From Aspidiotus rigidus (taxonomy: Eukaryota > Arthropoda > Insecta > Hemiptera > Diaspididae), in NCBI GenBank assembly GCA_035079385.1, contig JAVHKY010000056.1, forward strand, positions 1,488,001-1,552,000: DNA of 64,000 nucleotides, written 5' to 3'. The position numbers were made by a program, and so were the translations under genes. Shown in pieces: positions 277 through 54,699 of this stretch. Every line of letters begins with the position of its first letter. Position 1 is the stretch's first letter. The notes below the pieces were generated by a model that saw only the letters and a list, made by a program, of their open reading frames with translations, made no database searches and was not told the origin of the DNA.

Positions 277-282
277 CATATT
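277..282. repeat. Left 6-bp target-site duplication (CATATT) of the Polinton
   Basis: CATATT directly precedes the first base of the left terminal inverted repeat. The same six bases directly follow the right terminal repeat at 14109-14114. A 6-bp duplication is the known signature of Polinton/Maverick integration. Confidence 0.85.
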
Positions 283-602
283 AGTAGTACAGGCGGGTCT
301 TTGGTACACTTTCCCTATGATAAAAATTCATTAAATTAACAAAAAATACACTCCAAAAAAAAATTAATGCACAAACGTTTCCCAAAAACATTCAGACATT
401 ATTTTACTCGTTTCTCATACTTTTCCAGAGAAAATCACCGATCTGGTATAAGAAAATGGACTTTTTAAAATTGTAAGTTTCTAGACTACATATTGGTTCT
501 GACTTGTATTTCAGACTTTTTTCAGAGAAAATCGCCGATCTGGTATAAGAAAATAGACTTTTTAAAAATTATAATTTCCTAGACTGCATATTCATTCTGA
601 CT
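283..602 (+). repeat. Left terminal inverted repeat of the Polinton
   Basis: These 320 bases match the reverse complement of 13789-14108 with few differences. Matching stops abruptly at 602, where the left side continues with a third internal repeat and the right side does not. The outermost bases AG...CT agree with Polinton ends. Confidence 0.85.
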
Positions 603-690
603 TGTATTTCAGACTTTTTTCAGAGAAAAATCACTGATCTGGTATAAGAAAATAGACTTTTTAAAATGATAATTTCAGACATTATTTTAC
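421..690 (+). repeat. Three tandem sub-repeats of about 96 bp in and beside the left TIR
   Basis: A unit containing GATCTGGTATAAGAAAAT followed by GACTTTTTAAAA occurs three times, starting near 421, 516 and 612. The right TIR carries only two copies. The third left copy lies inside the TIR boundary, so the two ends differ in copy number. Repeats at the ends of a linear protein-primed replicon could serve as replication origin or terminal-protein binding sites, which is inference. Confidence 0.7.
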
Positions 691-861
691 TTGTTTCAAT
701 CAAAATGATTGATATTCAACCTTTCTCTCTGTGTTTCTCATGTAGGAGTTGAGACCTAGGTACCTTTTAAAATCTTAATAAAAATGGTGTTATTGAAAAG
801 AAAGTATAAAACTTATAAGTAAATCTAGTCTACAAATAAATGTTTATCAACTTAGAAAAAT

Positions 862-1236
862 ATGAATACTTGTGAGAGCAGCTACCAAGACAATATCTAT
901 GAAGTTCATTTTGAAGAAAATCCTGAAGAGTATATGGAAGTTATAAGAGCAATCAAAAATGCGGAAATCTTATTCCTTGGTGGTAGTCCACTTTTTGATG
1001 ATATTCGATTCTATGATCCACAACCTCAAACTGATCTAGGATATGAATCAGATATAGATGAACCTAATATGGAGATAGTCAATGAACCAGATATAGATGA
1101 TCCAAATATAGATACCGGTATAATAAATGAACCAGATATTAAGATAATCAATGAACCAGATAATAGCTTACTATCAGCTAGCACATCTTGTGATAACTTG
1201 AGAAATAAATCTAATCAGGGAACAGAAAATAAATAA
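862..1236 (+). CDS. Acidic hypothetical protein of the Polinton
   Basis: This is an intronless 124-residue ORF starting at ATG 862. The protein is strongly acidic. From about residue 65 onward it contains a degenerate repeat built on NEPDI, occurring about four times with DEPN and DDPN variants. There is no membrane segment, and I recognise no family. It lies on the + strand, opposite the polymerase, at the left end of the element. Its AT-rich codon use matches the other element ORFs. It could be a small virion or regulatory protein, but nothing in the sequence proves a role. Confidence 0.55.
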   Translation: MNTCESSYQDNIYEVHFEENPEEYMEVIRAIKNAEILFLGGSPLFDDIRFYDPQPQTDLGYESDIDEPNMEIVNEPDIDDPNIDTGIINEPDIKIINEPDNSLLSASTSCDNLRNKSNQGTENK

Positions 1237-1284
1237 ATACCCAATTATTTTTTAAACTAGAAATATCAATCAACCTTTTTATAC

Positions 1285-1296
1285 TTATATAAATAA
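1285..1296 (+). promoter_or_regulatory. TATA-like 12-mer before the 1303 ORF
   Basis: TTATATAAATAA lies six bases before the ATG at 1303. The identical 12-mer lies directly before the ATG of the 7552 ORF. The sharing suggests a promoter motif of the element; AT-richness makes a chance match possible. Confidence 0.4.
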
Positions 1297-1302
1297 TCAA
1301 AA

Positions 1303-1470
1303 ATGGAAAATCAGAACAGCATGCAAGATAATTATAATGACTATGAAGAAGAATATGAAAAATTTACTCAAAAATGTAAGGATAGAACAAGGGAGAGAAT
1401 GAGAGAAAGAGATAGAATAAAGATAGATAGACCTATTGATAACTATGATAAATCACCTACCTATATTTAA
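1303..1470 (+). CDS. Small charged hypothetical protein of the Polinton (55 aa)
   Basis: ATG at 1303 opens a 55-codon frame ending with TAA at 1468-1470, just before the convergent end of the polymerase gene (stop at 1489). The peptide is acidic at the start (NDYEEEYEKF) and then highly basic (KDRTRERMRERDRIK), so a short coiled or nucleic-acid-binding peptide is plausible. It is preceded by the TATA-like 12-mer shared with another ORF of the element. I do not recognise a family. The short length keeps confidence moderate. Confidence 0.4.
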   Translation: MENQNSMQDNYNDYEEEYEKFTQKCKDRTRERMRERDRIKIDRPIDNYDKSPTYI

Positions 1471-1488
1471 TTTTCAATAATTTCATTT

Positions 1489-4400
1489 TTAGTACCCATA
1501 TGGTATAGTATCATAATTAGGTAAGATTACTCTTTTATCATACTCAAATTTAAACTTTTTGGTCTCTACTATATTTACTAAATTTTTAGTTTTTATGTCT
1601 CTATGTATTCTATTGTAAGTCAAGTCTACAGAAGTCTGTTCAAGCTTATTCATATTTTCCTTAATTAGCTTTATCATTGTATTACCATTCAATTTTTTTA
1701 AATTTTGATAGTTCAATGTAAAACCTTTTATTTTAGTCACATTTTTACCCAAATTAGTTTTATAATAATAACTTTTAGGACCTGTTGATGCCCACAACTT
1801 GATATATTCATCCTTTTTGAGCTCATCTGTCCATTCTCCTAGCATATCACCAGTTTTGATAGTATTTAAACCATTATCAAAATAAACTATAGAATCTGTA
1901 TCACAATAAATCACAGCTTCACCTAATTCATTTAATTTTTCATACAGTCTTAATCTAGCATTTGCTGTTGTAAATAAAGCTATATAAATATTAGTACTAG
2001 TATTATTTTGAACATAATAATCCTTAAATTTATAACTCATTTGTACTGTCTCTTCTGTTAGATAATCTACATTTATATCAATTAATCTATCATCTAGTAA
2101 AACTTCATAAAACCTTTGCACACTAGTCACATACTCTGTTTGACTCATATTTTGTCTCTGACCAAACTTTCCCCACAAACTATTTAAACATATTTTTGCT
2201 ACAGCTCTTCTACCAGGATTTACTTCAATTTTTTGAGGATCCAAGTCAATACCCATTTTTTCCTTTATATCCTGTATATATTCCTCATTTGAATTATAAT
2301 TATGAGGACTAGATTCTAGTTTAATCTTCATAAAATTTTTTACATATTTTTTAAATAAATTTTTTCTTTTCTCTGGAAAATCCCAGACTTCATAAATTTG
2401 TTGAATTTTATATCCTTTTTTGATTGCTTTATTAACTTCAATAGTTGACCATGTTCCTGTTATTATTCTTTCATTATCAGTATGAGGACATTTACTTATT
2501 TTCTTTTCAGCACATTTTAAGCACAATGGGAATAATAATTTTTCATTTTTATCCATTTTAACCTTAACAGGTAATACAGGATGATACAAGTTCTTTGGAG
2601 GTAGAATTTTACATTTTATTATTCCAAACCAGTTCTTATCATGACGCTCTGGTTCAATAAGTTTTTCAGGATGACCAATAGGATAATAGTCATAATATTG
2701 AACAGTTGGGTACAAACTACAAACATCTATATATTTAATTTTCCTATTCTTTGTAGATTTTGTCCACAATTTAAATGTATTAGTTCTTCCTCCAAAGAAT
2801 GCATCTCTTGGTTTCAAAGGTTCAATTATCTCTGGTTTTATACTAGTTTTATACTCGGATGATTTAGTCCATTTACATTCCCACATCTCTGCTAAATTAT
2901 ATCCAGCTTCCTTTATTCTGTTACTTCTCTCTGTTGTTTTTTCATACAAATCACCCATTTCTTCCTGATTCACATTATTTATTCTATCCTCACTATAACA
3001 CTTTTGACAACCATGCCAGAAACATCCGTGATATTGGTATACAGTGTTAGTTTTCTTATCAAAACCATCAACTTTTGCTCCACAGATCATTTGCTCACCA
3101 CCATTCAAAGCGTGTTTTATATTAGGATTTTTAAGACTATTTAACCAACTTATAGACTGTCTCGAATATTTTTCTTCTATCGGCTCATTCACAACAGCTA
3201 TAGTATCTTTCCATATATATTTAGATCTATAGATAGCCATACAGACACTAGCAATTGTCAAATATTGGAAAGGATCTATATTAGCTATTTCTAGAAATTC
3301 TTCCCTAAATTTTAAACAACCTTTTCTTAAAATATCAACATCTGATTTACAATATTCTATAATTTCTTTCTTCATATCAAAAATATAATTTTCTTGAACT
3401 CTTTGTAAATACCATTCTAAGAATTTTTTCCTACTTTCAGGTTTTATCTGATTATAACAATAGTACTCTTTTGCAGGGATTGGTCCAACATAATTTTCAT
3501 TTTCTTTAGTATTAAATAAATGTGGAAAGTACCCTTTTTTCAATTCAGTTAAACCAAATGTTTTTGGAAAATCACTTAGGGGTCCATTAATGAAATTACT
3601 ACTGTCAATGATTTTCAAATTTATTCTTGATAGTTCTAAAAGCATAAGTTTTGTTCCATTATAAATTGTATAAGGCTTAAGAGTATTTTCAACACAATAT
3701 TTCAAAATGAACTGAGAATCATAACCTTTTGCATAATGAGCTATACACGTATAATCTCTATGTTCTTTTGATATCAACCATTTACAAAATTCGTCGTTTG
3801 TTTTAAATTTATATTCATTACCTTTAAAATCATGAGCAATCACTAAATTAGGTATATGAGTTCCTGTCTCCTGTTGGGCTTCATAATCAAAGAATATATA
3901 ATTTTCAGTGTAAGTACAGTTAGGCAATTTTTTCTCTTCTTCTTCTCCAAAAATTTCATTTGCAAAAGGAAATGGATTTAGTCTATTTTGTAATTCTTGT
4001 TTACTCATCTTACTAAAACCTTTTATTTTTTCTACTTTGGCTTTATTTCTCAATTCAATCAAATTATAGTCTTTTATAGGTTTAACAAACTGTTCATGAT
4101 TACCTCTACAGAGGCAAACTTCTCTTTTACATTTACCACCTTTTTGTCTTTTCCACTGCATATAACATTTATGAGTTTTTGTTTCAACTACTTTCCAACA
4201 ATTTCTATATTCTTCAAAACCACATTTATGGGGTTCAGTAGCAAACAATCTCAGGGTACTATTATAGTTGATCTTATCTTCAAATATTTTATCTCTTAAA
4301 CAGATTTTATTACACTCTAAACACTTGAATATAGTATTACAAACAGTTTCAAGACCATCAAAACTATTTTTGTGATTTTCAAGACACTCTTGATTAAAAC

Positions 4401-5718
4401 AATATCTATTACAATCTTTGCAGAAGATTTTCTTCTTTGAGTCAACTACATGCTCTTTCTGAAGACATAATCTACAATTTATTACCCTGTCAATGCATCT
4501 ATGTTTATCTTTATGTTCATAAGGTTTATTGCATTTATGACAATAATAACTAGATCCATGAAAACCAGCCATTTTAGAAATTACATCATAATGATTACCA
4601 TTTTTATACAAGTATATTTTTATATCTTTTTCAGGTCCTTTGTATATGATAGAATTAAAATTTTCTGCACAAACAACATTTATCTGAATATTTATTAGTT
4701 TCTCCAAATTTGCTATATCATCTAATGTAAAACCTTCCTGGTTATAATCACCAAGTTGATTACATAAGTGAGTAGTAAGATCTGTTTGTAATTTTATCCC
4801 AATACGAATATATTTAATTTCACTTTTAGAAAATTCTTTACTAAATACAGTATTAATAGGGGGGTTCTCTTCAGGGTAGGTTAATGCTACAACAACAGCT
4901 CGAGGGCAACATAGATTATCTTTATTTCTTATTTCAATAATAGATTTTTTAGTTTGTTTGGCTAGGGCTAAATTTAAAATTTTGGTATTACGACCTCCTC
5001 GAGGCATTGCAATTACATTTATATTGAAAGTAGAAGTTGTAAGATCAAGTTCTTCATTTGAAGTCAAAATTTGTGAAATTCTTTCCAACAATAATTCTAC
5101 ATACTCTCGAGCTGAATCCCCTCTTTGATAGCCTGTTGAAATAGGATTAAAAAGTACAGGGTTTCTCACAATAATATTTATTCTGTCGCCTGTTCTAAAG
5201 TTAGTACGTTTTTTAACTACTTTAATCATTTCTTTGAGAGCTCTTGTTATTAAATCTGTTTGCGCATCCTCTGAGGAGTCTTCTATTAATACATCATTTT
5301 TAATAGAAATAGTATAATCAGATGAATAAGCGTTATATTTTTTAATATATCTAGATGCAATTTCTTTGATTTGAATAAGCTCCTCAATATTTTGCAGTTT
5401 TTCCAGTTCAGGTTCATAGAACAAATCCTCAAATGGAAATATATGTGTTAGCGGAACAGTCTTGTGTGCCAACAAAGCAGATTTGTCCTGATCCTTTGAA
5501 TTTGTAGAACTTAATACATTGATTAGATCTGTTTTATTCATTTTACAGTGTCCTTTTATATTTTTATCCTTTGCAATTTTTCTGAGGTCTTTCATTGTTG
5601 GGGGTTTAGTTGGGGGTTCAAGATTCAATACTCTGAATAAATCAGCTTTACTCATTTTACTGTAGCCTTTTATGTTTCTACCTTTTGCAAGGATTTTCAA
5701 TTCTTTTACAGATGTCAT
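1489..5718 (-). CDS. Protein-primed family B DNA polymerase (Polinton PolB) with SAP-like motifs
   Basis: This 1409-residue intronless ORF starts at ATG 5718 on the - strand. Two SAP-like motifs lie at the N-terminus (about residues 3-34 and 41-70), each with a [I/V]KG.[S/C]KM.K core, and a third lies near 547-580. A Cys/His-rich region follows at about 390-540, with CHKC, CRLC, CKDC and CLEC pairs. The 3'-5' exonuclease motifs are visible: FDYEAQ near 608, DSSNF near 704 and YCKSDVDIL near 791. A GGE...HGCFWHGC block, typical of Polinton and linear-plasmid polymerases, lies near 890-920. The polymerase motifs are DVCSLYP (A, near 1000), KICLNSLWGKFG (B, near 1179) and YCDTDS (C, near 1274). 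All catalytic aspartates seen appear intact, so the enzyme may be functional. It would copy the linear element in the nucleus using a protein primer. The length is at or slightly above the family range because of the extra N-terminal modules. Confidence 0.92.
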   Translation of the reverse strand: MTSVKELKILAKGRNIKGYSKMSKADLFRVLNLEPPTKPPTMKDLRKIAKDKNIKGHCKMNKTDLINVLSSTNSKDQDKSALLAHKTVPLTHIFPFEDLFYEPELEKLQNIEELIQIKEIASRYIKKYNAYSSDYTISIKNDVLIEDSSEDAQTDLITRALKEMIKVVKKRTNFRTGDRINIIVRNPVLFNPISTGYQRGDSAREYVELLLERISQILTSNEELDLTTSTFNINVIAMPRGGRNTKILNLALAKQTKKSIIEIRNKDNLCCPRAVVVALTYPEENPPINTVFSKEFSKSEIKYIRIGIKLQTDLTTHLCNQLGDYNQEGFTLDDIANLEKLINIQINVVCAENFNSIIYKGPEKDIKIYLYKNGNHYDVISKMAGFHGSSYYCHKCNKPYEHKDKHRCIDRVINCRLCLQKEHVVDSKKKIFCKDCNRYCFNQECLENHKNSFDGLETVCNTIFKCLECNKICLRDKIFEDKINYNSTLRLFATEPHKCGFEEYRNCWKVVETKTHKCYMQWKRQKGGKCKREVCLCRGNHEQFVKPIKDYNLIELRNKAKVEKIKGFSKMSKQELQNRLNPFPFANEIFGEEEEKKLPNCTYTENYIFFDYEAQQETGTHIPNLVIAHDFKGNEYKFKTNDEFCKWLISKEHRDYTCIAHYAKGYDSQFILKYCVENTLKPYTIYNGTKLMLLELSRINLKIIDSSNFINGPLSDFPKTFGLTELKKGYFPHLFNTKENENYVGPIPAKEYYCYNQIKPESRKKFLEWYLQRVQENYIFDMKKEIIEYCKSDVDILRKGCLKFREEFLEIANIDPFQYLTIASVCMAIYRSKYIWKDTIAVVNEPIEEKYSRQSISWLNSLKNPNIKHALNGGEQMICGAKVDGFDKKTNTVYQYHGCFWHGCQKCYSEDRINNVNQEEMGDLYEKTTERSNRIKEAGYNLAEMWECKWTKSSEYKTSIKPEIIEPLKPRDAFFGGRTNTFKLWTKSTKNRKIKYIDVCSLYPTVQYYDYYPIGHPEKLIEPERHDKNWFGIIKCKILPPKNLYHPVLPVKVKMDKNEKLLFPLCLKCAEKKISKCPHTDNERIITGTWSTIEVNKAIKKGYKIQQIYEVWDFPEKRKNLFKKYVKNFMKIKLESSPHNYNSNEEYIQDIKEKMGIDLDPQKIEVNPGRRAVAKICLNSLWGKFGQRQNMSQTEYVTSVQRFYEVLLDDRLIDINVDYLTEETVQMSYKFKDYYVQNNTSTNIYIALFTTANARLRLYEKLNELGEAVIYCDTDSIVYFDNGLNTIKTGDMLGEWTDELKKDEYIKLWASTGPKSYYYKTNLGKNVTKIKGFTLNYQNLKKLNGNTMIKLIKENMNKLEQTSVDLTYNRIHRDIKTKNLVNIVETKKFKFEYDKRVILPNYDTIPYGY

Positions 5719-5790
5719 TTTAATATTAATGTTTTTCTTAATGAAGTTTTCCTTTTTATTTATTAAGAAAAAAATTTTTAAAAGAAAAAA

Positions 5791-6267
5791 TTATTTTTTA
5801 AACTGTTGTTTTATTTCTAACATATCTTTGTGTATTTGAGTTGTCTTATGAGCTTTGAGTGAAACTAACAAAACAGTTCTTCCACATTCACAAGCAGTTT
5901 TCACTTGTTTACTTTTATAATTTTTTAGAACTACTGTTTTATGATCATTTCTATTCTTCTCATAATATTCTTTCATTAATTTACTCTTGCATTCTTTACA
6001 ATAATCTTGTTTATTACTAAAATCCTTTTGATCTCTTACAGACTTACAACCTGTACAATATTTTTCATTTTGAGATAAATCTATTGTCATTTTAGTTTTA
6101 GGTGGAGTAGCACATTCCTTACACATTGTTTGAGTGGTATTTTCAATCGATGTAAGGACTTTATTTGAAGGTGATTGTTCAAATTCATTTACATTCTTCA
6201 CCTTTTTACACTTAGAGCAATATCTTTCATTTTGTGCTAACTTAATGATCAGAGATTTGTGTTTCAT
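5791..6267 (-). CDS. Cys-rich zinc-ribbon protein of the Polinton
   Basis: A 158-residue ORF lies 72 bp upstream of the polymerase on the same strand. It contains two similar units, near residues 18-52 and 70-110, each built as CxxCKxxK/R....F followed by CKEC. The second ends in LMKEYYEKNRNDHK. This Cys pattern plus the YYEKNR tail is seen in small zinc-binding proteins of phages and large DNA viruses, often linked to HNH or endonuclease VII-like folds, but no catalytic His-Asn-His triad is evident. A third Cys pair (CECG) and conserved His residues lie near the C-terminus. A nucleic-acid-binding role and co-expression with PolB are inference. Confidence 0.6.
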   Translation of the reverse strand: MKHKSLIIKLAQNERYCSKCKKVKNVNEFEQSPSNKVLTSIENTTQTMCKECATPPKTKMTIDLSQNEKYCTGCKSVRDQKDFSNKQDYCKECKSKLMKEYYEKNRNDHKTVVLKNYKSKQVKTACECGRTVLLVSLKAHKTTQIHKDMLEIKQQFKK

Positions 6268-6788
6268 CTTTTCTTAAATAATTTTCAAGTATTTACATAG
6301 GAAAATTTTTAAGAAGAAATTTATTTACACAATGACCTTTTCAAAATACGTTCAAAATAAGATATGAAACCTTCCTAAATCCTTCCAAGTTATAGAAACC
6401 AACATAAAAGCTTCCTAAATCCTTTTCAAGTCATAAAAACCAACATTAATGTATCATGAACATAAGTTATTATATTATAACAACATTAGATAATTTATCA
6501 AAGTATGTAAAGTGAAATTATTTTAATTATTATAACTAGAAATCTCAAGTTTTTTGATTGGTTATTCAAACTAATTGCAGACAGAATTCAGATAAAGATT
6601 GTCTATATAGACTGCAGTTTGATAAAAAGCAACCCTTCTTGAAATAGATGTAAAACCTTATTAAGATTTTTCAAACACATGATGATATTTGATACCAGTT
6701 ATTAAATGTTCAAATTTAAGTCAACATTCTCAACCTTTGGTTAAGCGGCTTTTGCAAGATTCTTTACACCAGCTACCAAATTCTGTTT
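6268..6788. other. Non-coding spacer with a two-copy direct repeat
   Basis: No ORF of note is present. At about 6366-6446 a unit of roughly 40 bp (CTTCCTAAATCCTT... followed by AAACCAACAT) occurs twice in tandem. The rest is AT-rich spacer between two - strand genes. Confidence 0.5.
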
Positions 6789-7403
6789 CTAATTCTGTAT
6801 AATAGTTACATCATTATTTATACTGGGGACATTTACAGTTGTTATTTTCTTGATATTATTAAATCTAGGTCCCTTTTTAGGATCAGATTTCATGTGTTTC
6901 AATTCATCACGAGTGAATTCTTTAGTGCCTACTTCTGAAAATGCTGGTTTAAAATCATCATGAAATTTTATATCTTTCAAGGTTTTCTTCATATACTTTG
7001 ATAATTTCTTATCCTTAGAGTCTACAATTATAGTTGAGAAGACATTATTTAGTTCTTCAACTCCAGAATTATCATTATGCTTTTCAGCTTGAGATTTTAT
7101 GATTTTCTTATATTTCTCCTCCCTTTCAAGTAGATTTTCTATCAACTCCTGATTTTTAAAATTGGCATATTTATAAATATCTGAAGTCATAGTTGTTTGC
7201 TGTAGAGCTATAAAGAACTGTCGAACAATAGTTTTCATATTAGTATTCATATTTTTTAAACCATCAATAGCTTGAATTATTCTTGCTAGATTACTTTCCT
7301 CATTTCTTATCAATTCTTCCAATTCTTTATTTTTTGAAATTATTCTATCTAACCCTTCTAGCTCAACTTTGGAGGGCATATATCTTTTTATTTGGCTTTC
7401 CAT
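6789..7403 (-). CDS. Coiled-coil hypothetical protein of the Polinton
   Basis: This is an intronless 204-residue ORF. Residues about 15-110 are rich in Glu, Lys, Leu and Ile in heptad-like spacing, consistent with a coiled coil. The C-terminal third is basic and contains a conserved-looking GTKEFTRDELKHMKSDP segment. No signal peptide or membrane span is seen and no family was recognised. It is transcribed divergently from the HTH ORF at 7552 across a GGTA-rich spacer. A structural or DNA-associated role is possible but not shown. Confidence 0.55.
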   Translation of the reverse strand: MESQIKRYMPSKVELEGLDRIISKNKELEELIRNEESNLARIIQAIDGLKNMNTNMKTIVRQFFIALQQTTMTSDIYKYANFKNQELIENLLEREEKYKKIIKSQAEKHNDNSGVEELNNVFSTIIVDSKDKKLSKYMKKTLKDIKFHDDFKPAFSEVGTKEFTRDELKHMKSDPKKGPRFNNIKKITTVNVPSINNDVTIIQN

Positions 7404-7435
7404 TTATTAGAAAAAATTTTATATTTTTATATTGT

Positions 7436-7530
7436 ATGGTGAGGTAAGGTAAGGTAATAAGGTATGGTAAGGTAAGGTAATATGGTACAGAAATAAGGTA
7501 ATATTGTATGGTAGTATGGTATGGTAAAAG
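7436..7530. repeat. GGTA-rich minisatellite between divergent Polinton ORFs
   Basis: Irregular tandem copies of GGTAAGGTA, GGTATGGTA and GGTAATAT fill the 148-bp gap between the divergent ORFs ending (5') at 7403 and starting at 7552. The position fits a bidirectional promoter or replication-related site. The repeat itself is visible; the role is inference. Confidence 0.6.
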
Positions 7531-7551
7531 AAATAAAATTTATATAAATAA

Positions 7552-7956
7552 ATGACTCCTAACGAGTTAATTAAAATATTAAAAGAATATGACTTTAAGA
7601 AAAATAGTGTGAGAAGCTTTTCTTTGAAATATAAAATTACTGAGAAGACTATACTAAAATATTTAAAAGAACATAAAATACCCTACAACAATAGGAAAAT
7701 AAGTTATGAAATGAGTAGAAATTGTCTAGGTCAATACACATTTAAAAATGCAACAACAAAGCAATCTAATGCTATATATGATTCAAATAAATGTCAAAAT
7801 CAAAGTCAACCTAAGAGTAATATGATAGATAAGACTTATTCTACATTACAAGTTAGTAACCAATCAAGTCATCAATATAAAAATAATTCTGGTACAGTAA
7901 AAAATTTTGCAGAATTTAATAAAAAATATGAAAAATTTTTCTCGAGAACTTCATAG
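7552..7956 (+). CDS. HTH-type DNA-binding protein of the Polinton
   Basis: A 134-residue ORF starts at ATG 7552, directly after TTATATAAATAA. Residues about 3-40 resemble a resolvase- or Psq-like helix-turn-helix (NELIKILKEYDF...SFSLKYKITEKTILKYLKEH). The remainder is polar, rich in Asn, Gln and Ser, and probably unstructured. No catalytic domain is attached, so it is more likely a regulator or DNA-binding accessory protein than a recombinase. The last few codons fall where base composition changes toward host-like DNA, so the true C-terminus may have been replaced. Confidence 0.5.
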   Translation: MTPNELIKILKEYDFKKNSVRSFSLKYKITEKTILKYLKEHKIPYNNRKISYEMSRNCLGQYTFKNATTKQSNAIYDSNKCQNQSQPKSNMIDKTYSTLQVSNQSSHQYKNNSGTVKNFAEFNKKYEKFFSRTS

Positions 7957-8274
7957 CCTCGAAAGTATGTAATATTTCCACAAAAACCTAATACAACAGA
8001 ATTTTTGTAAGTAAAAGCAATGAATTCGTTGACAATAGCACTTCGACGGATTGTTCCATGTTGTTGCGATCTTGGTTGCGATGGCCTGCGATGGTGTAGG
8101 TTCCAGTTTGTAGTTCGCTGGAATCGCGTATTATTCAAAACTTTGTCTCATATTGTGCAAACTTTCTGCACTCAAAAAATACCTTCCAAGTTTTTCGATC
8201 TTGAGCTGGAAAAAATTTAGCGCGAAGTTGTAACTGACAGTTTACATTGGTCTGCTACTTCTTGTTCATCTTAA

Positions 8275-8948
8275 ATGTCGAATTTCCCCAAAGTTCTTTG
8301 TAGTGTAGCACCCATAGCCAGAGTTCTGAGCATGGCTCTGTCTGGTTCATCTGGTTGTCAATTATTCTTTAACGTGAGTATACATTGTTAATAGTTCTCA
8401 TCAATTGTTACATCTGATAACGTACAAAAATACGATATGTTTCGATCTCAAATTACAGACGGCCAGAAATTTCTCAAAATATCATTCTGGTGCTGCATTG
8501 GTGAAGGTAAGTTCTAAATAACATTGACTTCGTGTAAAAGTTGATTTAGAAATATCTGCCCAACTAATGCTTCAAATTTGTAAGTCAGAAATTAATTCCA
8601 TATTGACCTGAAAAATGTCTCGTGCAGGCAGGAGTAGATGTATATATCAGCAGATAAGAGACGAAAATGCACCCTGATACCAGGAGATGGTGTTGGACCA
8701 GAATTAGTTCATTCATTTCATAATTTTCAAACTTTCGTACTGAACGCTTGTTTCATCTTCAAAATCTGACTTTTATTCAATTGTTTCAGGCTGCCCAAGT
8801 ACCCGTAGAATTCGACATGCAAACTTTAATTATGAAATTAAGACGTGCTTCGGATTTGCACGCCAATGTGGTTCATGATTACGCGATTAGAAATAATCGT
8901 AAGAGAGTTACCGCTGTTCATATGAGTCTTCGATTTTATTCGAACTCC
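8275..8948 (+). pseudogene. Rearranged NAD-isocitrate dehydrogenase beta (IDH3B-like) fragment inside the Polinton
   Basis: IDH3B is the mitochondrial TCA-cycle subunit that partners IDH3A and IDH3G. Exon-like block 1 (8275-8373) starts with ATG and encodes a Ser/Ala-rich presequence ending at GTGAGT. Block 2 (8459-8506) encodes NFSKYHSGAALVK between AG and GTAAGT. Block 3 (about 8652-8715) encodes KCTLIPGDGVGPELVHS, the family's N-terminal signature, but no acceptor keeps it in frame. Block 4 (8790-8948) joins three family segments without introns: AAQVPVEFD, then MKLRR..DLHANVVH, then IRNNRKRVTAVHM. In intact enzymes these are separated by roughly 50-100 residues. The catalytic C-terminal half is absent. 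Introns are retained, so the piece did not come from a fully spliced mRNA. I judge it non-functional as IDH, although blocks 1, 2 and 4 join in phase 0. Confidence 0.75.
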
Positions 8949-9024
8949 GTAAGTTTCATGAAAGCTACGAGAATTGGATAGAATAAATTTGATAGTATTA
9001 TCCTTGTTAATTTTGTTTTGAAAG

Positions 9025-9115
9025 GCACAAAAAAGCCGGATGAATCGTCGAAAAAGCCAAATGAATCGTTGTCGGAGGTACCAAAAGAGCCGAATGAATC
9101 ATTGAAGGTACCAAA
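9025..9115 (+). repeat. Short tandem repeat coding-like for KKPxES units
   Basis: Three imperfect copies of a unit like AAAAGCCGGATGAATCGT, two of them followed by GAGGTACC or AAGGTACC, lie in a row. In one frame they read KPDESSKKPNESLSEVPKEP. They lie between the IDH3B-like block and the next predicted gene and may be a low-complexity exon or simple repeat decay. Confidence 0.4.
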
Positions 9116-9132
9116 TATTCAAATAGACCATA

Positions 9133-11045
9133 ATGAGTATTTATTACATCAAATCAATTCCCATTTTTTTTTTGGTCTTCTGGGTCTGTCGCTTTATTTT
9201 CTCAATGTATATGTTGTGTTTTTATAAGATGATTTTAGATTACACCAAAAATTTGAAGCGAAGTCAACTGTGTGAGGTAAAAAATGTGAATAACCTTTAT
9301 TGTTACTTAAATGTTCGCTGTTTGCATGTGGGATCAACGTTGCAAGCTTTCAATGGACAAATGAACGTCGATTTCGAAGAAAAACTGAAATTGAACGAGC
9401 TACCATGTAGTGTGAGAAAAATTTCTTATTCTATTCAATAAGTGTTCGATTTGTAAATTTTAGTTCGTCGCTACTTTCATTTGTCTATAAGTCATATTGT
9501 AACTCTTGTTTGATAGTCGCCAGCTGCTAGTACAAGTAAATGATTTTAATTTTGCATGAAAAAAAATATTGGGTTGTGTATTGATTAACCTTTTTAATTT
9601 CTTTTACGAGATCATATTCATCACTCAGTTCTTGAGCAATTGTTACAGTATTATCAAGATCTAATGCATCAATATCCATATTTTTCAACGAAAAAATAAG
9701 ATCTCATCATGGTTCAATAAGTTCAACAATAATATCGAAAATCGTGAAATTTTAATCAATTTAATTTTGAATGAATACAAGGATCTCAAAAGAGCAGTCG
9801 TAACCTTACTAATTTTGTTGTGTTTCAACTCTTTCTTGCTGGAAATCAATTTCTTAACGATCGATAGTTCTGTAGATTCTATGATTTTGTTCGTACTTTC
9901 TGGGTTGCTGTGACGTTATTAATTTTTCGAGACCAAATTCAACCTGATAATTTCTTGTTGTTTGATACTTCCAGGTTAACCCAGAGTTTGATCAATTAGT
10001 GAAGAGATTCCCAGAGGATAAGTCGTATCAGATGGGATTAGAAACCGCGCGGGTTTTCTTCGAGCCGCAACTAGTGAGTTCTAGGACGCAGTACAGTTCT
10101 GTTTTGAGAATATTTTGTCAGTATTTTTCTAACGATAGAAATAGTGAAAACTGAACGTGAATTTTGTTCGATGTTTACGAAATTGAATAATTATTGTGAG
10201 TTGATTGAACCAAAAATTACGATCAAGATGCTCAAATCTCTTCCCTGATTTCCTGATTCTTTTTTCTAACGCACGATAGGAATCCAATGAGTACTCGATT
10301 CTAAGCTATTTCTTGACGTCATTCGATACAAACTTTTGAGTGATAATTTATGATACAAAGATGAAAAAAATAATCGAAAAACGAAACGTAAATTCTGTTT
10401 TGAACGAATTTAAATTAGCTGATGAAAGTTTTTTCTTTTGAATATGATGTAGTCGTGCACCAAATTTAATTTCATGAACTCATTAAATTAATTTTTTTTC
10501 AGGGCCAGGAGCAAGAAAGATTCCGTGAAGTTCTATTTAGACGTGTATTACGTCAGCAAATCGAAGGTGTCGAAATCGAATTCAAAAAATTAGTGTATCT
10601 TGTCCAGGTTTTAAATTCAGACGCCAATGCCTTAAAGGAATGGAATCAACACCATCCGGGGCTAAATCTCCCCATAACATATGTGAAACCCTCATATCTA
10701 AAGATAAAATTTACCAACGGTGTCCTGGATATTATTCAAGAACAAAGAGAAGAAAAATGGTATTATTATTTGGATAATTCGCCGTCAGTCGACAAAAAAT
10801 TTATGCCTTGCTTCTTTAATTTTAAAGAAAAACTGCAAGAGCGTAATATAGACTTTAGAGTTGCAGCAAACCATACCGCACGGATTTATAGGATAATATC
10901 GAACCCGTTTCACGAAGAGAGCACATATCTATTGGACAAATATCCAAAAGACAAGCGAGTATCTATAGTAAGTAAAACAAATGAAGTAGTACGAGTGTTT
11001 ACGGATGGCTTGGATATTCTAAAAGAAGAAGAAAAAACCAACTGA
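9133..11045 (+). CDS. Predicted 3-exon cargo gene A, membrane-anchored protein of unknown function
   Basis: Predicted exons are 9133-9411, 9975-10073 and 10503-11045. Introns begin GTGAG and end CAG, and all junctions are phase 0, giving 306 residues and a TGA stop. Residues about 8-31 form a hydrophobic stretch (IPIFFLVFWVCRFIFSMY core), suggesting a signal anchor. An alternative start at 9229 would remove it. The rest is soluble-looking, with LVKRFPEDKSYQMGLETARVFFEPQL in exon 2 and EWNQHHPGL and KDKRVSIVSK in exon 3. I recognise no family. The spliced structure and higher GC differ from the left-half viral ORFs, so it looks host-derived although it lies within the Polinton ends. Exon prediction is from splice consensus and open frame only. 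Confidence 0.5.
9527..9679 (-). CDS. Short antisense ORF (50 aa) in the first intron of cargo gene A
   Basis: ATG at 9679 on the - strand opens 50 codons. The first 30 are acidic and protein-like (MDIDALDLDNTVTIAQEL), and the tail is AT-driven. It may be an exon start, because GTAAAAG occurs after codon 24, or a relic. No family is recognised. Confidence 0.2.
   Translation of the reverse strand: MDIDALDLDNTVTIAQELSDEYDLVKEIKKVNQYTTQYFFSCKIKIIYLY
10146..10475 (+). repeat. Copy 1 of a roughly 300-bp duplicated intron segment
   Basis: This stretch in the second intron of cargo gene A is closely similar, in the same orientation, to 11312-11605 downstream of that gene. Shared blocks include TTCGATGTTTACGAAATTG and GTGATAATTTATGATACAAA. 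It shows that part of the cargo was duplicated in tandem. Confidence 0.65.
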
Positions 11046-11311
11046 TGTAATGATTTTATATTCTCCTTTCGTGAGACTGTATATTTTTATTTGAAATTTA
11101 AAAATATCAATTTACTATTTTTGTTGCGTACTCATTTTTGAATACGTGCACAGATTCCGCTGAAAATATCTTATAATTCGAAGAAAAAGTTTTTGTAGAC
11201 ACTGATTGGTTACTGCTCTAGAGAAATAGTACATCTTGTACCTCTGAAGTGACCTGGGAAAAGTTAGCACGTTTTGTGGTTTACATTCTTCGTTAAGGGT
11301 TCTATCAATAA

Positions 11312-11605
11312 TGAAAACAGAATGTGAATTCTGTTCGATGTTTACGAAATTGAATAATTATTGATTTGATGAATATCACTCTTTGTGATTCTTTTTTCTA
11401 AGCTATTTCTTCACGTCATTCCATACAAACTTTTGAGTGATAATTTATGATACAAAGATGAAAAAAAATAGTTATTTCTCGATTCCTATCGATCGAAAAA
11501 CGGAACGTAAATTCTGTTCGAACGAATTTAAATTAGTTGATAAATGTTGTTTCTTTTGAATATGATGTTGATAAATACTCAGCCGTGCATCGAATTTAAT
11601 TTCAG
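11312..11605 (+). repeat. Copy 2 of the duplicated intron segment
   Basis: See 10146-10475. This copy also ends in ATTTAATTTCAG, an intact splice-acceptor-like end, suggesting that an exon-intron unit was duplicated and its exon then diverged. Confidence 0.6.
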
Positions 11606-11738
11606 TACGGTTGAATTCTCATTTTTTCCCATATGTTGAGCGTTTTGTACGAAATTCAAGGAGTAACGAGGATATTTTCACGCCACTATTTTTTATTCAA
11701 TGTGAGGTTTCTTTCGTTTGAGCTAAGAAGACGAATCA

Positions 11739-12075
11739 TTGGATTACACGTCATTTGCCCGAAGAAATATCCCCGAAAACTCGATGTCCAAAAACAATCT
11801 GCCTGAAGAAGAAAACCCGAAAACAGAAATCCTGAAACAAATCGCGCGAAATAAAATATTAACTCCAACGCCTACGAGATTTTCGCACAGAACGTCATTT
11901 GTCCTTGACGAGGAAGTGTACTTCCACAACGGTATACGCGAGTCAGCTACTGTGTATCAAAATTGTCTCGACAACTAGTTGAGTGTGCACAGATTCAAAG
12001 CATGAAAATTATCGAAGTTGTCCTTGATGAGGAAGTGTACTTCCACGAAGGTATACACGAGTTGGCTTCTGTCAT
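11739..12075 (+). other. Decayed repeat tract: spaced CCCGAA motifs, then a duplicated VLDEEVYFH segment
   Basis: From 11757 to 11850, CCCGAA/CCTGAA motifs recur at irregular 10-25 bp spacing. At about 11900-11953 and 12019-12072 a 54-bp segment occurs twice (period about 119 bp) and reads VLDEEVYFHNGI and VLDEEVYFHEGI. The preserved reading frame between the copies suggests past coding, perhaps an exon of a cargo gene. No family is recognised. Confidence 0.4.
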
Positions 12076-12282
12076 TATGTACGAGTATATTGAATTTTTT
12101 TGTTGGAGTGAACGGACGGCACAATTTCGAACGTTAGTGCTCCTCCAAAGACAATTTGCTCGTTTAGGTCTTTCTTGTACAAGTATTTACGATCAATTAT
12201 ACGTAACCTGTATATTTTCGATCAATTATACAAAGTGTTAATGTGGATGTCTAATTTAATATATTTCATATTTTCTGTTTAG

Positions 12283-13263
12283 GATACATTAAGAAGTAAT
12301 AGTTTAAGAGTTGTTGTCGTCCCGTATATACTGATGAAATTCGAACTATATAGATTAAACTGGGAAGTAAAAGGAACAAATTCCCCTTAGTGAGTTAGAA
12401 ACGTTCGATGCAGACTACGAGAACAGAGTATCAGCTGTCGATGATTAAGACGTTTCTTGCAAACATAACGTCTTGTGCGAACCTTTGTTTCTTTTGTTTG
12501 AACTCCATTCAGTCTCCTCATGATATTTTTCACATTTTTTGGATTTTTTTGTTTTCAATGTTTGAAAACTTACTCCAAAGAAGATTTGTTTTCTAGTAAT
12601 GGTAAGATGCTTCGCTGAACTTTGTATATATGTCAATTAATCGTATCTACTTTAGAAAAAAGAGGCGTTCTTTGCTGGAAAATTTATAGAATTCTGGGGT
12701 GATGGATTTTACTGTGGACTTACCTTGGTAAAAATGACAGACAGGTGATTTTCTCTAAAAAATACCTGAAATAATGTCTCAACAATTTCTGAACGAGTCT
12801 GATCTTTTTTTTTTTTTGAAGCTTATTTTCTGTGAGATTGATATAGTTTTTCGGGTTTCTTTTGGGTTATTTGAGCTACGAAGACGAATGAGAATTGTTT
12901 TCAATATTATTTTATTCTTTCGTGTTAATCCGATTTCAAATAACTCGTTGAACAATCTATGACACAGTAGAAGTCTTCTTCTGGTTCGTCATAAATGTGA
13001 GTGTTGTGTTAGGGCATCGTTCTAACTCGTGTATATGACATTCTTAATTGGTTTTTCAGAAAGCAAAAGATCAAGAAATTCTTAAAATGAAGCCCATACT
13101 AACGATAAGAAAAAATACAGAAATTTGGGAGGGGCTTTTAGCCCCAGAGCTAAGAGACCCGAATTCCGTTTTCAATCATGCTGTGATCAAAAATACCAAA
13201 CAACTGATGGACTACCATGAAGCGAAATGGACTGTTATCCTGTTCTCGTCAAGGACATCGTGA
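12283..13263 (+). CDS. Predicted cargo gene B, three phase-0 exons, unknown function (5' end uncertain)
   Basis: Exon-like blocks are 12283-12366, 12656-12727 and 13060-13263. Each starts after TAG or CAG and the first two end before GTAAAA, and all are phase 0. Together they encode about 95 residues ending in FSSRTS and TGA. Block 1 reads VVVVPYILMKFELYRLNW, block 2 FFAGKFIEFWGDGFYCGLTL, and block 3 is charged (KAKDQEILKMKPILTIRK). I recognise no family, and no start codon is assigned. AATAAA follows the stop directly and a 12-A run lies 20 bp further on. It could instead be the 3' part of the same transcription unit as gene A or the IDH3B-like blocks. Confidence 0.4.
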
Positions 13264-13265
13264 TG

Positions 13266-13303
13266 AATAAATTTTATACCTACTGTTATTTAAAAAAAAA
13301 AAA
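13266..13303 (+). promoter_or_regulatory. AATAAA signal followed by a 12-A tract
   Basis: AATAAA at 13266-13271 is followed 20 bp later by twelve A residues at 13292-13303. This is the spacing of a real mRNA poly(A) tail copied into DNA, although an encoded A-run is possible. Confidence 0.5.
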
Positions 13304-13788
13304 TCTGATGCGCTAACCATCAGTAATTTGGTTGAAATGTGACCGAACTAAGTGTTAAATCATGACGTAGTTACGAGAAAATAAATACAGACCGAACTAG
13401 TTGTTGCGGCCATAAGACCGAATGAGTAAGAGAGAGAGAATCTAAATCGTTATCATACGATGCATGAATGATTGACGTATGTACGTTTCATACTCTGTAT
13501 ACTGACTGCGTAAACGCTCGCGCTTCTCGTTGTTGCGGCTATAAGACCCGATAAGTAAGAGAGAGAAGGTTCTGACCACACGTGGGTGCTATTGATATTT
13601 AATAAGACCTAATGAGTAATAGGTTCTGTCGTGCGCGGTATAACTCTTCATATCTGGTAATGAACACGTGTTGTATGCAATGATGACTAGAAGATGTTCG
13701 ATTGCAGATCCCTATTGTATACGAAGTAAAATTGTGGTGACTAGAGTGATAGAATAACGTGTTATAATGAGTTCTCTTTCAGAAATAG
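13304..13788 (+). repeat. Spacer with degenerate direct repeats next to the right TIR
   Basis: A unit reading GTTGTTGCGGC, ATAAGAC, GAGTAAGAGAGAGA occurs near 13399-13440 and 13530-13570, with a weaker third copy near 13590-13620. No gene is visible. The composition differs from both the viral and the cargo parts. Confidence 0.5.
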
Positions 13789-14108
13789 AGTCAGAATGAA
13801 TATGCAGTCTAGGAAATTATAATTTTTAAAAAGTCTATTTTCTTATACCAGATCGGCGATTTTCTCTGAAAAAAGTCTGAAATACAAGTCAGAACCAATA
13901 TGTAGTCTAGAAACTTACAATTTTAAAAAGTCCATTTTCTTATACCAGATCGGTGATTTTCTCTGGAAAAGTATGAGAAACGAGTAAAATAATGTCTGAA
14001 TGTTTTTGGGAAACGTTTGTGCATTAATTTTTTTTTGGAGTGTATTTTTTGTTAATTTAATGAATTTTTATCATAGGGAAAGTGTACCAAAGACCCGCCT
14101 GTACTACT
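13789..14108 (-). repeat. Right terminal inverted repeat of the Polinton
   Basis: This is the reverse complement of 283-602, ending in GTACTACT, with two of the internal sub-repeats. CATATT follows at 14109-14114. Confidence 0.85.
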
Positions 14109-14114
14109 CATATT
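14109..14114. repeat. Right 6-bp target-site duplication (CATATT)
   Basis: It is identical to 277-282 and lies immediately outside the right TIR. Confidence 0.85.
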
Positions 14115-16351
14115 ATGTAATCACTATACTGAATTTTTATATTTTGTCAAAGTCTGGAGAAAATTCCTCCAAATTTAAATACGCCAATGTTTAAAGTCAA
14201 TTAGAATGAAAGTTTCGTTTTCCTTTTATTGTGTTCGTTGTTGTTGGTCCCCCTCTTCCTCTTCCTCATCCTCTTTTTTTTTTTTTTTTTTTTTGAGAAA
14301 AAGGTTAAAATCCGGACGTCGTGGTCAAAATATTCAACGATCCTATAGAACCAAAGCCTCTTATGGTAACAAGCCATGAACGTAAAATTGGCAACTGTAC
14401 AACCGTGGACGAACTATTAAATTATAGCCTCTTATGAGAGAAACAATTTTAGCGGCTGTATCTCAAGAAATATCGAGTTCCATGAACAACTGAAGGAATT
14501 AAAAGATGTAGCTCTTGAAATTTTCTTTCAATAAAGGTTTAAAATTGGAGAGGTGTTTGACATGTAAATGCATGAGCTGGACGCAGCGTTGAGTTGCATT
14601 TCTACGTTCATGGGTTGTAAAATATAGGTGGCTTTGTTGGAACCACGGTTGGAACCAACTTATTTTTCAGTCACTCAATTCTTCTGACTCTTCTGATCTA
14701 CCTACGCTACGCCGATATGTGCTTCATCGTTTAGGCTATAGCATCATTTAGTATAGACTGTGTTGAGCCGTTTCCGTTACAGGTTGAATGATGATAATGA
14801 ATCAAACTTGACGTGTAGTTACCCTCCCTTTTTAATGAATAGGCGCCATCGTATCGGCGGACGAAATATAAAAAATCTACATACCTATTGCTTCTATAAA
14901 TGCAGATAATGGCCACTCAGTTCCAGTAATTGGTTTGACTTCATATTAAGTGTGCAGTTGTGCAGTAGCGTATTCGCCTACAACAAGAAATTCTAATGAA
15001 AAACATAAGAATAAAATACACTATGTATTGTACAATAGTCTAAAGCGCTTAAGTTTTTATTTGATAAGTTACTTGTACGGTTTGTTCAATATTATAGTGT
15101 TTTTCACTCTTGTGTTTTCCATTAAAATATCCCGCAATATCTTCCTTCGATTAACTCAAAAAGAATTTTAAAGGTGGTATCAAGTCATGAAAACCAGAAT
15201 TTTTCACAACAACTTTCTGTTTATTTTATTTTGGTCTCTGCACACTTGCTTAGTTCATGTTTTGGAAGTTGTATTGGAAACATTCTCGATTCTTTTCGCA
15301 TCCCGAAGAGCAGACGTTACGCAAATAGCATTGCACGTCGCCGTTTTTTTTCCTATCTGAACTGAAAGAAGTGATAGTACGCTAATTTGTATAAAGTTTG
15401 GGTGAAGTGAGAGGAAAGGGATGGGAAAGAAGAATAATTAACAGAGAGCAAGCGGAGAAGCTTCTATAAAATTTGAGAGATAAGGGAGGCAACATTACGG
15501 CTCATCATTTTGATCAAAATTCGAAAATCCTAAGGTTTTCATTTTACGAGTACAAACCCGGTGGTTTGTGAAATTAAAACTCGAATTTTTGACCGTTTGT
15601 AAAATAAAAACCTCGAATTTTCGAATTTTGATTCTATCGAATTGTTCCTTTGTTCACTTATTTTTCACTATTGTTTGGCCTTCAACTTGATATAACCAAT
15701 TTTTTGATTTCTAAACAAATTTGAATTCATAAGTAAATACTCTCCTCGTCAGAGACAGTATAAGGCAATGTCGGAAACTCGACGTCACTTCACTAGGTGG
15801 TTTATGTTGTCAGTCCCATAAGGAACACTTTGATCCGAAGTTTTATTTTTCAAATAACTAATTGAATAAAAATTTCTGTGGAAAATCATGAGAATGAAAG
15901 TGATAGAGGTTCAAATTACCTTTAATTTGAGCCCAGTTCAAATATCTTTGTGCGATTTTTTTTTTTTATCATCTCCCATGAAGAAATGTAATTATTCTAT
16001 CTTTGTAATTGACCGTACTCAGGTATGATTTCATTTATTGATTTCTTTATTCTTTTTCCTTTTTATAGGTAAAAACAACCGTCGGTTGTAGTGGTATTCA
16101 TCAATTCATCAATAAATTTTCCTGGTCAGTCAAACAACGTTCGGAAAATTCATTTATTCAAATATTTATGTGTTCAACCTGTGTATTGAAATATTCATTG
16201 AATGTCAACCTTTCATCGTTTGTATTCCTGATGACATGTGACATCAATGTTGAAGTTGATTATCCCGAGCCATGAATGATGAGTCAACAAGATGTCCGGA
16301 CAAAATTTTACCTTCTCTCTATGAAACGATGTCCAGTATATTAATTGGCAG
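14115..16351. other. Gene-poor DNA between the Polinton and the MICAL-like gene
   Basis: A pyrimidine-rich microsatellite (CTTCCTC repeats, then about 22 T) lies at 14250-14294. I could not find CH- or LIM-domain exons of the MICAL-like gene here. A short open stretch from ATG 16273 ends 80 bp later and is not a convincing first exon. Confidence 0.4.
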
Positions 16352-19300
16352 GAGATAAATTCTTTTTAATAGGACAGACGAGACAATCTCACAATACAGT
16401 TAGCAAACACTCTTTGTCTATGAACTCAGAAACTACGCTGTCAAGAGTATCACATGAGAAAATGGATCTGTACCAAAAGCAAAATAGCAGAAGAAACAAA
16501 AATTTTGAGAATGATGACACAAGTACATTATGTGTATCTATCGAAAAATTACCCTTGAATGATCAAATGTCACGTGATGCAAGTGATCCTCTGTCTCCAT
16601 ATTGTTCGGACTTGAAACCTTCAAATCCGCTGTCGGCGTCATTGCTTTCTTCTAGTGATGACTCTGTGTATGCAAAACGTTTGTCTTATAACCAAGCTGT
16701 ACATCAAGGTTCTGGAATGAGTTCGCCTTCATCATTGGCCTTAAATGTAAAGCAGAATGGAAATCAGTATCTTTTAAAAAGCAAGTTGCAATTTGATGAC
16801 AAATTTCCAAGACATGATTTAATTGAGGTAAGAGAATCAAAAGAAGTGCAAGAGATGAAGAACCATTGTATTTTACAGGATGAGGCCATAGAGTTACTTG
16901 AAAAGTGTGCTGTGAATATTTGCAAAGATTCAATTCCCATTGAACGGAAGGATTGTAACAGTGTCAGTAATAGCGTCCCTCCAACTTACAGTGTCAGTAA
17001 TTTCAATTCTAAATTTGATGCTACATTTGTTGGTCACGCTGAATCCGAGAAGAACAGTAATGATGAAGATGAAACTAAGAATGTTGAAGATCATAGAAGT
17101 GAACATATTAATGCTGTTATTTTTGGGACTAGAACACCAACGCCTTCCGATTATCCAGAAGAACTGAATCCATTTGCAGAAGACAGCATAGATGAAAAAA
17201 TCTCCTTAAATGAGCAAAAACTAGAAAGTAAAAAGGAAGAATTGGTCGCTGACCACAATCCTTTTGAAGACGACAAAGGAGGGGACGAGAAGATGAATTT
17301 TAGAATAGAGGAATTAGAATCGAAGACAAGCAATCCTTTTTGGGATGCCAGTGATGAAGATGAAGCCATAGAGGAGGAGGAATCAAGACTAAATAGTGAA
17401 ATATTGAGAAACAAATCGTGCAACAAGGTGCCTGTACCCTTACCAAGGTATGTTACTTGAAATCATCTATGAATTTTTTCGATATTAATTATTGGTAGGC
17501 AGAAACGCGTTCTCTCCGCATCATTGCATGAGACATCGACGTCATGATAACCGCCAACGCTCTGGGAGTATGGCAGCGCAAGAAGAAGAAACTGAGATTG
17601 AAGGGAAAATTATATCAAAAATGAAGAAAGGAAAAAATTGAATTATAATAATTATAATGCAAGGAAAGATGAGGTTTTGATGAAATACTATAAGCTAATT
17701 TTTGGAAGTCAGAAGTTTAATATGAAAGTATTGATTGACCGTTCACAGAATTCTTAAATCAATTTTTTTTCAATCCAAAATAGTTGTTTCCAATATTCTT
17801 TATTTTCTTCTTCTTTGATTTTGAATGACGTACTATTTATTCATGTTACATTATTATCTGTTGGTCTTTTAAAAAACTTGTATATACCTTTCTGTATGCA
17901 GATTCAAAATACAAAGTACAGTACAATTACCCGAGTTGAGCCCAAGACATTCTGTCAACTTCTCTCCTACCCCGTGCAGTAAATTTCAAGATAATTCAAG
18001 CGAATTGATTTTCCAAAGTGAATCAAAATCTACTCCACAAAGGAAAAAAAAAGCACCTCCTCCACCCACTGTCATAGCACCCAATCAAGTAATGAGTCTA
18101 ATACCTACTAACTTTCATCATTAATTGTGTGTACACACATTTTTGAACAGAATAAAAAGTAATTGTCTCTAAATTTACATCACAGCATTGCACCAAGGAC
18201 CAAGAATCCATTTCTCCAATGTTGGAAAAAGAAATCTCTCCCACTGCCGGGCCAGGTGTTACAAACATTGCAAAAGAAGATTTGACATCAGTAGGTAAGC
18301 TCAGTAAATATTATGATCAATGGACTGATCTTATTATTTCTATAATTTTTGCCTCAAATAAGTAATAAAATTGTAAGGCCTTTTTGAGTTAATAACTTGA
18401 TATATTAAAGTTGTAGGTACTATATTTCAGAAATATTGTGATAAATTTTGTTATTCAAATTTGTATTAATGCAAAAACCATCAGTAATTGCCCACACTAT
18501 TCCTATTAAACCTCCAATTTCTAATAAATATATCATTCAATGCAGCAAATATGTCACCCTAATATTGTTGCAAAAAGCACAGGCTTTATTCGCTAATAGT
18601 AGGGTCCTCTCAGTTCCACGCGCACATTCAAGTGCCAAAAAAGGGAAGAAAATAATGATTATGAATATTTCTGCCTACTTTGCAGGAGATTTTGTTATTT
18701 TCTGTATTTTTGAATGAGATGAAACACTTTTCACAAACGTAATAGTATTTATTATATTTGTAACAAAACTAAATTCCATTCAGAGGAAAGGACAACTGAA
18801 TTGTGTTTGTTGGAAATACATTCCTTAACTGTGAAGTCATTGGAAAGACTTACAAGATGGAGTCATAGATCATTTCCATATTCTTGAGGGAAAAAGAGTG
18901 ATTGCGTGAATATTATGTATAGGATGCTTCAATTTCAAATTTAGATGGATTAATGATCAGTATTATCTATCAATTGTTGGAGAATAGCTGGCCAATGGTT
19001 GCTAAACTTTTCTCTTAGTGTAGTTACTACCAAAAATTAACTTCGACCCAGTTTGTTGACTGTTTGTGAGTTTTTAAACAAATAATCCATCATGCATACT
19101 TCTATACTCCAAATTTTTCTTTTATTGACCTGTGTTTGTTAAGTTGGGTTGTTCTTGCCTCTGGAGGTTGATATTGCTTACCTTCGAGCGGTTTTCCCTC
19201 TTTCTTTTCATAGGAGTGCGGCCTAATATCGGAAACGCGGGAAAGAGGAAAAAGGGTCCAGCACCTGCTCGGCCCACGGCGCTACGACGAACAGTTAAGA

Positions 19301-54695: not shown

Positions 54696-54699
54696 TGCA

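Follow-up and report, generated by a model that had tools for sequence, protein, structure and literature searches.

Limits, ends and left half of the element

The window, the whole 64,000-nucleotide stretch of Aspidiotus rigidus DNA that was analysed, contains a Maverick/Polinton-type insertion of 13,826 bp at positions 283-14108. The 6-bp target-site duplication (TSD) CATATT lies directly outside it on both sides, at 277..282 and, identically, at 14109..14114; chance alone would produce agreement of 6 bp at two fixed sites about once in 4,096 with even base use, and somewhat more often in AT-rich DNA. The left terminal inverted repeat (TIR; 283..602, + strand) starts with AGTAGTACAGGC and the right TIR (13789..14108, - strand) finishes with ...GCCTGTACTACT. 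The two repeats matched at 320/320 bp (0/320 mismatches), and base-by-base reading showed that divergence begins at position 321. The termini of the element, AGTAGT...ACTACT, follow the (AGT)2//(ACT)2 motif, which with the 6-bp TSD on both sides corresponds to the ends of Maverick/Polinton elements; these ends, with 6-bp duplications, are given as the commonest among vertebrate Mavericks in PMC8097293. Comparison of the first 20 kb with itself revealed this single long inverted-repeat pair. Tandem units of ~98 bp occupy 421 to 676 and extend beyond the left TIR; self-comparison detected no second copy of the element within the window. The identity of the TIRs suggests that the last insertion was recent, with the caveat that replication may even out TIRs.

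The left half of the element is dominated by an intact family-B DNA polymerase gene of 1,409 aa (1489..5718, - strand; PF03175, E 2e-46), whose product also possesses N-terminal Rho_N repeats and vOTU-like Cys/His regions. In its exonuclease and palm motifs the polymerase agreed with 17 aligned relatives apart from small variants, one row of the 18-row alignment having DTHS in place of DTDS. The vOTU-type Cys and His regions were gapped in 2/18 rows of the same alignment. The order vOTU, exonuclease, palm has been described for Maverick/Polinton polymerases in a preprint (PMC11071308). The enzyme, in which all three regions were recognized, is accordingly classed from its motifs as a putative pPolB type, for which protein priming is predicted. 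The closest relative was 74 % identical, and the 120 listed of 1,554 relatives included sequences from Aphis glycines and from the scale insect Parthenolecanium corni.

The remaining four ORFs of the left half are small and without a clear family. Protein-family searches assigned neither the acidic 124-aa ORF at 862..1236 (+ strand) to any family nor the 204-aa ORF at 6789..7403 (- strand) to a family above the cut-off, whilst the Cys-rich 158-aa ORF at 5791..6267 (- strand) gave a weak HNH-endonuclease-like match (phrog_2255, E 0.00028). The fourth, encoding 134 aa (7552..7956, + strand), stops at a step in base composition and was probably cut off by the DNA that follows it.

No related locus was found in viral contigs using the polymerase alone, an 18-sequence polymerase alignment, the relative P0010, the last exon described below or a 27-base TIR pattern as queries. 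When genome contigs were queried with a 12-sequence polymerase alignment, 25 loci were obtained among at least 593 pattern matches, all of them in bacterial records; these were short matches of 25-38 % identity, confined to polymerase residues 823-1010, and were not used.

Host-like DNA between the viral ORFs and the right TIR

At ~7950 the GC content rises from 0.24 (7800-7949) to 0.39 (7950-8099). The segment that begins here (7957..13788, 5.8 kb, + strand; referred to as the cargo) has a GC content of 0.344, compared with 0.275 for 661-7956 and 0.343 for the host DNA at 14115-20000, and its trinucleotide distance was 0.052-0.084 to each of seven host blocks vs 0.128 to the viral half. The initial sequence-only reading, which placed host-like DNA of higher GC between the viral ORFs and the right TIR, was therefore borne out by both measures. 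It had given the segment as 7950..13303 (5.4 kb), of which the start held; the end lies at 13788, where the cargo adjoins the right TIR (13788/13789), position 13303 being the end of a 12-A run. The window contains 11 A/T runs of at least 11, this one included, and the longest word common to 13296-13345 and ~7851-8650 was 7 bp, so that an origin of the cargo by retro-insertion was unsupported. Both junctions are sharp, which is all that would favour an assembly chimera at ~7950 or ~13789; such an artefact is very unlikely, as the matching 6-bp TSDs and the paired TIRs fit one real insertion and the window is without N.

The absence of integrase, ATPase, protease and capsid ORFs, noted at the outset, was upheld by six-frame Pfam scans of 283-13788, run with no positive control, in which none of these was matched. 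Within 283-7956 only the polymerase and Rho_N matched Pfam at E up to 0.1, and no Pfam domain was detected in six frames of the cargo at E up to 1. Thus no RVE-family integrase was recognized by Pfam in the six frames of 283-13788, and the scans likewise gave no ATPase, protease, or major or minor capsid gene, bearing in mind that the coverage of capsids by Pfam may be weak. Because integrase was not found, the element was classed as a Maverick derivative and not as a complete member of the group. Host-derived gene sequence does lie between its ends, as indicated by the host composition and by exons derived from IDH3B (see below), and in this respect it resembles a cargo-bearing Maverick.

Splice signals were unevenly distributed. 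The cargo contains 10 GTRAGT donors on the + strand and two on the - strand (shuffle mean 3.6; 1/300 shuffles reached 10), whilst 603-7380 has three (+) and one (-) and the host DNA at 14115-20000 three (+) and two (-), corresponding to 1.71, 0.44 and 0.51 per kb on the + strand, respectively. Spliceable ORFs were sought by computationally linking consensus donors to acceptors; the longest in the cargo was 1,086 nt on the + strand and 153 nt on the - strand, whereas shuffled sequence averaged 252 nt and never exceeded 534 nt (0/200 as long). Among eight host blocks, read on both strands, the best spliceable ORF was 1,041 nt, in a block with a 371-codon host ORF, followed by 678 nt. The earlier claim of spliced structure in the cargo is thus substantiated by the + strand donor excess and by a spliceable ORF beyond all 200 shuffles. 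The longest uninterrupted open stretch of the cargo was 191 codons (2/400 shuffles); the second longest, at 110 codons, was unremarkable (46/400).

A candidate chimeric gene

Five segments on the + strand (8275-8373, 8459-8506, 8790-8948, 9975-10073 and 10503-11045) chain to 948 nt running from ATG to TGA and encoding 315 aa, giving a gene model at 8275-11045 with five exons and four phase-0 GT-AG introns. Exon 1 (8275..8373) supplies the ATG and a leader-like sequence, MSNFPKVLCSVAPIARVLSMALSGSSG..., and is followed by a gtgagt donor at 8374; exon 2 (8459..8506; TARNFSKYHSGAALVK) lies between ag and gtaagt. The third exon (8790..8948) is a mosaic with an open frame and similarity to IDH3B, the fourth (9975..10073, exon X) has one open frame and a gtgagt donor, and the last (10503..11045, exon Y or gene A), which lies in the 191-codon open stretch, ends with the TGA stop. 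Each of the first four exons has a length that is a multiple of 3, and frame 0 is the sole open frame of 8275-8373, 8790-8948 and 9975-10073. An additional IDH3B-like segment at 8638..8736 (+ strand; SADKRRKCTLIPGDGVGPELVHS) has weak splice sites and may be an optional exon or a relic; its inclusion keeps the ORF open, giving 348 aa.

The similarity to IDH3B was found with a composite query consisting of exons 1-2 and the IDH3B-like, X and B pieces (E up to 1), which matched 46 proteins. All of these (46/46) carry PF00180, the isocitrate dehydrogenase family, and the best match was IDH3B of the mealybug Planococcus citri (E 2.3e-15). At 8647-8715 (the SADKRRKC...VHS piece of 8638-8736), 22 of 23 residues were identical to P. 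citri IDH3B 40-62, whilst the exon at 8790-8948 fuses P. citri residues 69-78, 122-140 and 199-213 in frame (AAQVPVEFDM / QTLIMKLRRASDLHANVVH / DYAIRNNRKRVTAVH). With the pieces aligned by hand, 67/379 IDH3B positions are retained, 61 of these 67 being identical to P. citri, and therefore no working IDH3B is carried. Three residues are replaced in QTLNMKLRRALDLYANVVH, a pattern that fits decay and new function alike. The 315-aa fusion gave no match to Pfam, and the IDH3B part is therefore too fragmented to be recognized by the family model.

For the other parts of the predicted protein the searches gave no relative. Exons 1-2 did not match P. citri IDH3B, and the N-terminal half found nothing better than E 0.17 in the PDB. 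A set of 99 word-sharing candidate proteins contained no relative of exons X and Y at E up to 1, nor did X+Y match any PDB chain at E up to 1, and the AlphaFold model of the last exon was uninformative (pLDDT 39).

Codon usage was scored against three host and three viral ORFs of the window, which gave host-like values for exons Y (+10.7) and X (+10.7) and for E1 (+7.3) and E4 (+11.4), compared with -293.1 for the polymerase gene. These values bear on whether gene A (and B) could be fast-evolving Maverick genes that gained introns, rather than host genes, a view with which the failure to find a cellular relative is consistent. It is most improbable given the host-like composition, the codon usage of exons X and Y, and the possibility of splicing gene A into one frame with IDH3B sequence.

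Frame 0 was the best-scoring frame for exons X, E1 and E4; the coding score of exon Y vs background was about zero (-0.1), with -43.7 and -26.9 in its other frames. The five-exon chain was chosen by eye before the scripted search, so that the choice of model is post hoc, and the 1,086-nt optimum follows a different path, starting at 9133, omitting the IDH3B exon, including exon X and most of Y, and leaving exon Y at 10967. For these reasons (a post hoc chain that differs from the scripted optimum, and the near-zero score of exon Y) the fusion gene is regarded as probable, not proven. The + strand donor excess, the spliceable ORF and the continuity of frame support it, and on this sequence evidence the cargo probably encodes one spliced chimeric gene, part IDH3B and part orphan, of 315-348 aa on the + strand.

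At least three gene pieces had originally been distinguished in the cargo. The IDH3B similarity of the first was confirmed; its separation from gene A was not, since both fall in one spliced frame. The third, gene B (13060..13263, + strand), is preceded by an acceptor ending at 13059 and followed by AATAAA and the 12-A run, and its open frame scored -0.5 for coding vs 4.0 for another frame; it is doubtful as an exon because it has no relative and its open frame is not the best-scoring one.

The last exon is flanked on both sides by a direct repeat of ~260 bp, with copies at 10140..10450 (+ strand, in the intron before this exon) and 11307..11568 (+ strand, 3' of it), the matching pieces of which are 82 and 93 % identical. 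As the TIRs are identical, this divergence makes part of the cargo look older than the last insertion.

Origin of the cargo and relation to known elements

On balance we favour the explanation that a Maverick/Polinton derivative without recognizable integrase or capsid genes captured intron-bearing host DNA and was then inserted using an integrase supplied in trans. Because the introns and the order of the exons are preserved, the 5.8 kb of host sequence would have been taken up as DNA; template switching or break repair may have brought it in while the linear element was being replicated. It would have come to sit in place of the integrase, packaging and capsid genes, with the ends and the pPolB-type polymerase retained, and the whole unit would then have been inserted at CATATT. 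Since the polymerase and both ends are present and integrase is not recognizable, the integrase most likely came from a complete relative. If expressed, the fusion product would combine a leader-like N-terminus, the IDH3B patchwork and the orphan C-terminal part; from the make-up of the leader and the location of IDH3B, our guess is that it may be delivered to mitochondria.

The order of these events could be reversed: a complete Maverick would have been inserted first, its right part would later have disappeared at that site, and break repair or ectopic gene conversion would have put host DNA into the gap, so that the cargo has never travelled with the element. The junction of the cargo with the right TIR coincides with the point at which the two TIRs cease to be identical, so that 320 bp of the right side remain, and the IDH3B parts are as fragmentary as in filler DNA. 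This sequence of events is nevertheless rather unlikely, as the identical TIRs and intact polymerase suggest that little time has passed and the cargo has a long, ordered, in-frame spliceable structure.

Helitrons encode a Rep/helicase protein and have TC...CTRR ends with a hairpin. Another mobile element, a Helitron for example, nested in an internally deleted Maverick would account for a mosaic of gene fragments all in one orientation, and Helitrons are described as taking up gene fragments, not full genes (PMC6431247). We consider this improbable, given that no Rep/helicase or transposase was matched by Pfam in six frames of the cargo and that, to the right of it, nothing Maverick-like but the TIR was recognized.

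The favoured reading, capture before insertion, joins features that are known separately. The 6-bp TSD, the (AGT)2//(ACT)2 TIR ends and the PolB with its vOTU-type region are shared with Maverick/Polinton elements (polintoviruses), from which this element differs in having no detected integrase, ATPase, protease or capsid domain, in containing an intron-bearing segment, and in length (13.8 kb vs the 15-20 kb given for Polintons in PMC4028283). Nematode Mavericks, as reported by Widen et al. (2023) and summarised in PMC10680173, encode integrase, polymerase and capsid proteins, carry cargo genes (wosp, krma) and move cargo between species. Host genes on a Maverick are common to both cases; unlike in those elements, as that summary presents them, the cargo here replaces the modules except for the polymerase, keeps introns, looks chimeric and was seen in one copy. 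Polintons that have jointly lost the major capsid protein (MCP), protease and ATPase genes have also been described (nine elements; PMC4028283), and compared with that account, in the present element integrase was also not found and host DNA fills the space.

Capture of DNA by Pack-MULEs and Helitrons yields introns and chimeric genes. Gene fragments are captured by them at the DNA level (PMC6431247), as also appears here, except that the carrying element is virus-like and encodes its own pPolB. Maverick cargo and capsid-less Polintons are thus already known, and what is new is their occurrence together, with integrase not found and with intron-bearing, partly chimeric host DNA. No report of a mealybug or other insect Maverick with host cargo was found among the titles and abstract openings searched.

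The element may hypothetically represent a new cargo-bearing Maverick type or lineage, of which one copy was seen, and with a single copy spread of the cargo is not demonstrable. Much more speculative, and in our view quite unlikely, is a gene-carrier lineage that dropped integrase and capsid, retains its ends and polymerase and is mobilised, perhaps packaged, by intact relatives, spreading a newly made, spliced fusion gene whose product would be directed to mitochondria by its leader and might act as a selfish or host-modifying factor.

Gene movement between animals is largely unexplained, and Mavericks are among the few carriers reported, in nematodes, according to PMC10680173. This young insect copy, with its clean ends, intact polymerase and intron-bearing host DNA, would, if the favoured reading is true, show that cargo is taken up as DNA and not via mRNA. 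It would also show that an element of this kind need not encode capsid or integrase itself in order to persist. It suggests how Maverick-like elements could acquire host genes.

Repeats and an insert within the element

The family-B DNA polymerase of the Maverick/Polinton-type element carries a Vsr/endonuclease-like insert at residues 890–953 (window 2860–3051, minus strand), which matched phrog_13076 with an E value of 7.5e-05 and TIGR00632 with an E value of 0.022. At least 25 bacterial loci with weak matches around this insert were found in genome contigs by the PolB alignment search. In the host-like cargo segment, a 55-bp stretch occurs twice (11899–11953 and 12018–12072; copies 87 % identical), with the open frame VLDEEVYFHxGIxE.

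Host coding sequences to the right of the element

An ORF of 371 codons (16345–17460, plus strand) had no Pfam match at E values up to 1, and was judged by eye to resemble a MICAL-like protein. Further right, domain matches identified two host gene exons, one from an RCC1-repeat protein (40041–40328, minus strand) and one with an ABC-type ATPase domain (52279–52536, plus strand). The latter, together with the ORF at 48838–49101, which had no domain match, is probably ABCF2.

Possible retroelement remnant and repeats outside the element

The Pfam match to a GIY-YIG domain in the ORF at 26039–26473 (minus strand) was barely over the cut-off (score 22.9 against 22.6), and the adjoining ORF (26437–26850) had no domain match; the two look like a remnant of a Penelope-type retroelement. 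The 264-bp stretch at 46332–46595, a 94 % match to its own reverse complement, may be a palindrome or a simple repeat. Diverged repeats, 80–92 % alike and many of them inverted, cluster at approximately 54344–59809, outside the element, and are no part of the Maverick insertion.
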